Part shown: one piece after another, positions 12,373-14,156 of the stretch
How positions within the stretch are numbered: the first letter of the stretch is position 1
How the letters are laid out: each line of letters opens with the position of its first letter
Assembly (NCBI GenBank): GCA_018334755.1
Contig: JAGXLI010000008.1
Span: forward strand, 1-49,146
Source: Thermoplasmatota archaeon
Lineage (GTDB): Archaea; Thermoplasmatota; Thermoplasmata; Halarchaeoplasmatales; Halarchaeoplasmataceae
Reading direction: 5' to 3'
Length of the DNA: 49,146 bases
Translations under genes and position numbers: made by a program
Notes under the pieces: generated by a model
Told to the model about the DNA's origin: nothing
Seen by the model: the letters and a program-made list of their open reading frames with translations, nothing else
Database searches by the model: none

Positions 12373-12392
12373 CCCACAGCCAAGGCTGTGGG
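12373..12392 (-). repeat. Right-end palindrome of the IS200/IS605-like element
   Basis: Perfect inverted repeat cccacagcc-aa-ggctgtggg downstream of tnpB. Confidence 0.7.
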
Positions 12393-12404
12393 CTTCTATG
12401 CTCT

Positions 12405-12457
12405 CTACTGGAATTTGCTAGCAAATTCCATCGATTCACGGAACGAGTTCCGTGTAA
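12405..12457 (-). repeat. Double-hairpin element copy 1
   Basis: tggaatttgctagcaaattcca (perfect 22-nt palindrome), tcgatt linker, cacggaac-ga-gttccgtg. Confidence 0.7.
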
Positions 12458-12554
12458 CTCCGGGCTTTCAACCCAGATTCATCCATAGTTCGGGCAAGTT
12501 CATCTATTGCCCCCGCCATGTTTTGCCAGAATGAATCCGGCTCAATGGACTTTA

Positions 12555-12600
12555 CACGGAATCCAAGATTCCGTGAATCGAAGGAATGCTCCGCATTCCT
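12555..12600 (+). repeat. Double-hairpin element copy 2 (opposite orientation to copies 1 and 3)
   Basis: cacggaatc-caa-gattccgtg, aatcga linker, aggaatgc-tcc-gcattcct. Confidence 0.7.
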
Positions 12601-12920
12601 GTATATATCACTGTGCCGGGATATACCCTTTGCAGCGATGTTGGCTGACGCATTGAACTCAGCGTCAACTTCATCATCACATCTGCTGCAGTATACTCGC
12701 TGAAAAGAGGAATTATGCGGTCTCTTGACCCGTTGATTACATTTATAATGAAGTCTTGAGGTATTCCATTCGTTTATCTTCTCGCCTTTATTACCGTTCT
12801 CATTTAGTTTCAATATGCACTGGTCGATTATCCTACTAAACGACCAGTGCTGTAGTAATTTTCTACCTACTTTATCACCGTTGCCCTTGTACTTATTGTA
12901 CCGTATGTCTCTTGGATTCT

Positions 12921-12967
12921 ACTGGAATTCTAAGGAATTCCATCGATATGAGGAATTTGATTCCTCA
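12921..12967 (-). repeat. Double-hairpin element copy 3, inserted in the tnpB coding region
   Basis: tggaattc-taag-gaattcca-like hairpin, tcgat linker, gaggaat-ttg-attcctc. Confidence 0.7.
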
Positions 12968-13987
12968 AATATACCGAAAAAGACTGTAGTACCGTCAGGT
13001 ATCATCTCTGCAAACTGTTTAGCCAACTTTCTATCGAAGTCTTTTGCCACATTTTGTCGTTTGCTGCGCAGTTTCCTCAAAACCCCGTACTTCTCTTTTC
13101 TTCGCAAATGTGATATCCTGTCGTCGAGTTCCTTTAAACGCTCGGATTTACATGTTTGTAAGATGTTGAACCGTTCTATACCGTCTTCATCTATCAGCAC
13201 GGCTGATAGGTCTCGCTCGATCCCAAGATCAACACCACAAACATGACTTGTCCGAGCTTCTGTAGATTCATATTCATAGGTTATATGGACCATATACTTA
13301 CAACCTCTTTCCGGATGATGTACGATCTCAAAACTCTTGATCTTATCCGCCTCTTCTAGTTGCTCTTCATGCCAATCCGCCGGGTTTAGCAGCACGTCGA
13401 TAGTCTCTCCTTTCTTCAGCGTGCTTATATGCATCATCCATCCGGTCAGATCAAGATCTTCTGTTCTCTGGATCTTGCCTGTTCGATAATCAAAAAACGT
13501 AGGTATCTTCTTGTTATACTTCTTTGGACCAGGCAGAGTCGGCTCTCTCTGCTCCAACTTCTTGCACCATCTGGTCCCTTCTCTTGCATTGCTCATCGCC
13601 CACTCCCACTTTTCGTGACTCCTTTTGTACTGCCTGTACATCCATAGAACTTTATCTTCAACTTGTTGGATGAAACCAGTACTCAGACCTGTTTCCTCCT
13701 CCAAATATTCAGAATAACGCCTAACCTCATAAGTATTGCCTGGAATGAAACCTTCTTCATTTATCTTCTCACAAAGTAAATGAACCGCATAAGTCAACCT
13801 CGCTGTTAGATTGTCAAGATAGGACATCTTCTTTTTAGTTGTCTCGAAATGGATTGGGACCTTAACAGTCTTTCGTACTTTCATGAGCATCTTATATATA
13901 ACGCACTAGCCATTTGTAGGTGAACATGGGAGAGGTAAGTAAAAGTAGAGAGACAGGGACTATGTTCTCGTCTACCACGACATTCAT

Positions 13988-14007
13988 CCCACACGCAAGC
14001 GTGTGGG
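13988..14007. repeat. Upstream palindrome matching the right-end hairpin
   Basis: Perfect inverted repeat cccacacgc-aa-gcgtgtggg, about 100 bp upstream of the tnpB start. Confidence 0.65.
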
Positions 14008-14156
14008 TTTTCTGTCTATCATACGTTAATAAAAAAACTACTGCCCTATAAGATAAGAGAATATATGAAACATATATCCATGAAACGCGATCGATAGGCG
14101 AAAATAAAGAAAAGATTTATTATCTCACTAGACTTCCAGTATTAACGGAAGCGAAG

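Follow-up and report, generated by a model that had tools for sequence, protein, structure and literature searches.

A family-restricted, gene-less double-hairpin element in hypersaline-lake Thermoplasmata that recurs at the 3' ends of tnpB genes

Gene-less palindromic mobile elements are an established kind of repeat and, in halophilic archaea, they include the PATEs of Haloquadratum walsbyi, which have two near-terminal palindromes and a terminal oligonucleotide, lack inverted terminal repeats, cause no target duplication and are heterogeneous in sequence (PMC3119063). The double-hairpin element described here resembles the PATEs in all of these features. However, PATE palindromes are related to the ends of IS605 (PMC3119063), whereas no such parent has been found for the present element, and the tnpA and tnpB ends that were inspected, on short contigs covering only part of the ends, are unlike it. 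A second repeat of the same organism, SMR-A, is likewise small and gene-less, produces no target duplication, prefers IS605-type elements and has an enigmatic mover (PMC3119063), all of which apply here too. Unlike the present element, which is 46–67 nt long, SMR-A is about 110 bp in length and displays prominent inverted terminal repeats and a high identity between copies (PMC3119063). SMR-A are also inserted preferentially into PATEs (PMC3119063).

The REP and REPIN sequences associated with RAYT proteins provide a further parallel, as they form hairpins, occur as dimers or clusters, possess a GTAG-containing end and are sometimes found inside palindromes or genes (PMC3733652, PMC6006769, PMC3116915). 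In REPs, though, the hairpin has GT[AG]G at its 5' foot (PMC6006769), in contrast to the element, which has GTAG on its 3' side. Only bacterial phyla are listed in a survey of repeats tagged with GTAG or CGTC (PMC3733652), and a survey from 2025 reports REPs in archaea, with Thermoplasmata absent from its text (PMC12306157). The Rickettsia palindromic elements and the CGTC-tagged repeats are, like the element, palindromic, frequently in frame within protein genes and without a known mover (PMC10969869, PMC3733652), but the former are given as about 150 bp in a review and the hosts are bacterial (PMC10969869, PMC3733652), whilst the CGTC repeats end in CGTC (PMC3733652) rather than GTAGA. A MITE of a DDE transposon would have terminal inverted repeats and a target-site duplication, neither of which is seen at the pairs of sites examined. 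In the mitochondria of fungi and sponges, double-hairpin or repetitive hairpin elements are also short hairpins with occasional insertions in genes, and no flanking duplications are reported for those of Allomyces (PMC2800124); these reside in eukaryotic organelles, not in archaea, and the likeness is one of anatomy and insertion, with no common descent claimed. The analogy with mitochondrial and Rickettsia-type elements that was drawn from the sequence alone holds for anatomy, the missing target-site duplication and in-frame insertions. The accompanying suggestion of novelty in archaea has to be narrowed in view of PATEs and SMR-A (PMC3119063), but no description of this particular family was found in the literature searched, which excludes most subscription journals, and the family is apparently undescribed.

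The element was recognised in the window, that is, the whole analysed stretch of 49,146 nt, where three copies lie in and around the tnpB gene of an IS200/IS605-type element (12436–13890, minus strand). Copies 3 and 2 interrupt this gene and copy 1 marks its end, and a PF07282 match at 12436–12813 marks the C-terminal part of its product. The left end of the host element is an inverted repeat (13979–14016, minus strand), and the same hairpin together with ATGAATG is present upstream of related tnpB genes, whilst its right-end hairpin (12373–12392, minus strand), consisting of CCCACAGCCTTGGCTGTGGG followed by TAGTTCAC, is conserved in related copies in the alignment of the copy 1 region. Copy 1 (12404–12457, minus strand), which reads TTACACGGAACTCGTTCCGTGAA-TCGA-TGGAATTTGCTAGCAAATTCCA-GTAGA, is at the tnpB stop codon. 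Copy 2 (12552–12605, plus strand) has the opposite orientation and a 3' end of GTATA, and tnpB reads through it in frame, whereas copy 3 (12918–12971, minus strand), within the coding region, supplies an in-frame TAG. The three double hairpins, with the second inverted, are present just as the sequence-only reading had them, but its limits of about 45 nt per copy and 12405–12967 overall are slightly too narrow, since each copy is 54 nt long and together they span 12404–12971. Beyond these copies the 49 kb window contains no double hairpin with an ATCGA-like linker, and no Rfam 15 family reached the gathering score in the window or E<=1 in the region of the three copies.

The exact limits were set by comparison with empty sites in related tnpB genes of other genomes. 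Orthologues of the host TnpB in G003, G004 and G007 share 71–81% identity with it, and the deletion of exactly the three 54-nt pieces yields a protein that is colinear with these relatives. The copy 1 site is empty in L180, L183, L186 and L184, with a junction that is one base off in comparison to the relatives without the copy, and it is occupied at the same place in L127, which indicates that copy 1 is older. For copy 2 the site is empty in L180, L181, L183, L127 and L184, and the junctions GGACT/54 nt/TATC compare with the empty sequence GGACTTATC. For copy 3 the junctions TTCGGTA/TATTTGAGG..GTAGA/ATCC compare with TTCGGTAATCC in L180, and the site is also empty in L181, L183 and L186. The tnpB insertions at 12918–12971 and in L109 are at different places, but in both the end of the element is in the same phase and gives an in-frame TAG (TTC CAG TAG).

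Across the family the element is about 46–67 nt in length. The first hairpin has an outer stem of a few base pairs, a bulge of 1–2 nt on the 5' side, an inner stem containing GGAA/TTCC and a loop. This is followed by a TCGA linker, a second stem of the form WGGAA/TTCCW with an A-T or T-A pair at its foot, a further loop and the 3' tail GTAGA, which follows the second stem in almost every copy. The linker had initially been read as ATCGA, but its leading A belongs to the stem, where its partner is the element's first base; this pair is T-A in 50, C-G in 10, A-T in three and G-C in one of 65 copies. Similarly, the GTA edge noted earlier is genuine and extends to GTAGA (GTATA in copy 2). The ends of the element form no terminal inverted repeat. 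In a MAFFT alignment of 45 copies, pairing is maintained in 97.8% of cells compared to 73.1% in shuffles, which bears out the observation that stem letters vary whilst pairing is kept. The covariation score in the same alignment is 0.600, compared to 0.142 for shuffled and at most 0.093 for slid controls, and 11 of the 16 stem pairs show changes on both sides. Neither the observed pairing nor the observed covariation was reached in any of 500 shuffles; these tests are inflated by relatedness, but the slid controls retain that relatedness and yet score far lower. The base pairing of the double hairpins is not due to chance.

A genome-wide covariance-model search, as proposed in the sequence-only reading, was undertaken with a model built from the three window copies, and identified 12 copies in the genome of origin (E<=0.01) as well as copies in all 16 genomes of the family. 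With a second model, constructed from 45 copies, at least 154 copies were found in 16 of 16 family genomes (E<=0.001), a lower bound because the wide searches scored 19–28 candidates per genome. The same model detected the element in none of 184 other genomes of the class (E<=0.001) and none of 292 other genomes in a sample of the phylum (E<=0.0001). The element is therefore restricted to one archaeal family, comprising the hypersaline-lake Thermoplasmata Saliniplasma, Haladaptatiplasma and Halarchaeoplasma. When 85,462 species genomes were scanned with a pattern, 29 stretches were returned whose titles denote Thermoplasmata from saline and soda-lake samples, including Saliniplasma, Haladaptatiplasma and Halarchaeoplasma, together with two further contigs from the same sediments that are binned to other groups. 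The contigs of the copies L123 and L127 are binned as Halanaerobiaceae and Aenigmatarchaeota; the two derive from T1Sed10 sediment and reflect either misbinning or transfer. An exact-spacing pattern found no match in the genome of origin because the copies vary. Viral contigs gave two pattern matches, both of them chance single hairpins. At several contig ends in G001 and G002 (L021, L066–L070) one copy recurs within a nearly identical composite of hairpins; assemblies break at this composite, with the consequence that copy numbers are underestimated.

Insertion is clean. At the occupied and empty pairs examined there is no target duplication beyond a one-base ambiguity, which answers the question raised earlier of whether one accompanies the element. 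In the tnpB of L109 the arrangement ATCGCTG/54 nt/TGAGG compares with the empty ATCGCTGTGAAGG in L127, L198 has GGAAGC/67 nt/TTGTCAG in place of GGGAGCTTGTCAG in L205, and L127 has GCCCGAAC/63 nt/TATGG at a site that is empty in the window. Two more such pairs, L131 and L075, are also without duplication. The same holds for the pairs with GAAA/55 nt/TGACC at the end of a transposase gene (L114) and CCTCAACCT/54 nt/TGCAAAGG in a tRNA-Ala copy. The target consensus is loose, with T or C after the insertion point at 46 of 57 sites. Some insertions are within the loops of target inverted repeats, as in TTCCTCgaag^taaaGAGGAA, TCCATCgttg^tttGATGGA and the anticodon loop of the tRNA-Ala copy, and at six of 55 sites the loop belongs to an inverted repeat whose stem is 6 bp or longer (P=4e-5 against the window background). 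The flanks of copies are themselves rich in hairpins, with 4.6 per kb compared to 0.65 in the window, and against these flanks the enrichment is not clear (P about 0.06). A preference for such loops is hence suggestive.

Copies are found in both orientations, either inside transposase genes or where these end, and in cellular genes, and seven copies in the insertion-site set are tandem neighbours. Within transposase genes the frame is often shifted. In contrast, an 803-aa AAA_16/TPR protein (L033) and an ATPase_2/DUF234 protein (L040) have in-frame, stop-free inserts that add 21 residues and, inside the DUF234 domain, 17 residues, respectively, and both genes look intact. In two genera (L126, L132) an Rhs-like reading frame, assigned by eye on short fragments without a Pfam match, also contains an in-frame element. 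That surviving genes keep only in-frame, stop-free inserts looks like selection after insertion, comparable to the Rickettsia elements. The tRNA-Ala insertion was also considered as an intron, a reading that is not supported, since the occupied copy has no tRNA 3' end and adjoins an intact tRNA-Ala. Truncated tRNA-Ala copies with the element at the anticodon loop are adjacent to an intact tRNA-Ala in both G002 (L037, 862–1142) and G003 (L063, about 2510–2810), and another truncated copy with the element is found at the end of L048, such that these copies look like a repeated tRNA-derived landing site. Genes resembling AbiE-type toxin-antitoxin systems and nucleotidyltransferase/HEPN pairs recur near copies (L075, L078, L105 and others), the largest clusters comprising nine and six loci.

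Copies are strongly in excess at tnpB 3' ends. When the family's tnpB genes were searched for independently, 37 matches were obtained, and the element model, applied to these, placed seven copies no more than 300 nt downstream of the TNB domain, compared to the 0.06 that the density of copies across the genomes predicts (P=5.5e-13). Allowing tenfold for neutral DNA gives P=3.4e-6, the factor being a rough guess that leaves the exact enrichment uncertain but its direction clear. If the tnpB gene in the window is set aside, there are still five loci (P=5e-9). Comparison of L198 with L205 places one insertion immediately before the right-end hairpin. In known systems the stretch before this hairpin, at the tnpB 3' end, encodes the guide RNA of TnpB.

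That the double hairpins represent a real mobile element restricted to this family is close to certain, and the description of a small mobile palindromic element made from the sequence alone is upheld by the many other copies in the genome and the related tnpB genes that are empty at these positions. How the element moves is less secure. The best explanation, held at a probability of roughly 60% for its two parts taken jointly, is that it is a non-autonomous element mobilised by a single-strand HUH (Y1) mechanism. It would move as folded single-stranded DNA, excised and pasted in trans by an IS200/IS605-like Y1 enzyme, with the two hairpins being recognised by the enzyme and cleavage taking place at the GTAGA end. 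It is inserted whole between two target bases, in either orientation and without target duplication, preferentially into other mobile DNA and above all the 3' ends of tnpB genes. We infer this mode because the element inserts cleanly, has folded ends and keeps a fixed 3' tail, which is consistent with the behaviour of IS200/IS605. Single-strand Y1 transposition in IS608 and ISDra2 is established to give hairpin-marked ends and no target duplication (PMC6006769). IS608 left ends have unpaired sequence 5' of the stem, however, and the element has none before its first stem. Y1 genes are present in 12 of the 16 family genomes, yet 14 of 45 genomes that lack the element have them too, and none were found in four family genomes that have copies (these genomes being 61–83% complete). 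The nine Y1 loci of the family were scanned with the element model and none is flanked by the element, the sole strong match being inside one of the Y1 genes. Neither the Y1 distribution nor the locus scan ties a mobiliser to the element. There is also no REPtron, a Y1 gene flanked by repeats, among the nine, and the REP-type TnpA partner raised earlier, like a RAYT association, receives no support. The only Y1 (IS200-type) gene found in the genome of origin is itself interrupted by a copy (L008/L156, G000:C110:11021-11073).

Other origins have to be weighed against this. The double hairpins can hardly be a native structure of tnpB, for instance part of its guide RNA. Seven copies are located at tnpB 3' ends, which in known systems encode the guide RNA, but the hairpins are absent at all three positions from related tnpB genes, a comparison that the sequence-only reading had named as decisive for a native scaffold, and copies occur in both orientations, in coding regions, in a tRNA copy and in unrelated genes. 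A closer contender, if still an unlikely one, is a terminal-only PATE, in which left and right IS605-type ends would have been fused with loss of the genes whilst remaining a substrate for the parental TnpA. Two near-terminal hairpins, a conserved terminal oligonucleotide and clean insertion are the PATE description, and a 52-bp example is reported in Haloquadratum (PMC3119063), but no parent was found, the inspected IS605-type ends (hairpin with ATGAATG; hairpin with TAGTTCAC) are unlike the element, and none of its matches flanks the Y1 genes of the family.

Rather improbable is spread through RNA, by which a folded transcript would be reverse-transcribed or templated into breaks, a route proposed for the Allomyces mitochondrial elements because duplications are missing (PMC2800124). 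The lack of target duplication, the retention of pairing as stem letters change and the copies in tRNA-Ala would all suit such a route, but the defined GTAGA end and the intact 5' ends argue for end-specific cutting. An unrelated enzyme, such as a tyrosine or serine recombinase, a DDE transposase or a casposase, that recognises the folded or double-stranded form is less probable again. Such an enzyme would accord with the want of a mobiliser tied to the element: among the ORFs up to about 2.5 kb from copies there is neither an over-represented transposase family nor a shared protein family that could be the mover, and the commonest were judged by eye to be AbiE-type-like. Against it, the terminal inverted repeats are missing, as are the target duplications normal for DDE enzymes and casposases.

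A further and distinctly speculative possibility is that the element is a hyperparasite of IS605/TnpB, whereby a single-stranded element of about 54 nt would home to folded DNA at tnpB 3' ends (the guide-RNA region and right-end hairpins) and to other hairpin loops, and so break or rewrite the RNA guides of TnpB. The preference for tnpB ends links the element to the biology of TnpB, which is an ancestor of Cas12. The element is among the shortest mobile elements with known occupied and empty sites, here in archaea. Its approximately 150 natural variants reveal where the sequence tolerates change and where pairing has to be maintained, and they offer a direct set of substrates for how gene-less double hairpins move, a question shared with the Rickettsia and mitochondrial elements.

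The double hairpin may belong to a wider set of related palindromic modules. In the flanks of copy-bearing loci (L006–L106), 289 of 547 hairpins with stems of at least 7 bp have GGAA/TTCC arms, and many of these are single hairpins. After the TNB domain of L193 there is an extra palindromic stretch (CTGCCTGAGG..ATGCAGG..CCCGTACAGG) relative to the paralogue L205, possibly a second element family, with a double hairpin nested inside it.
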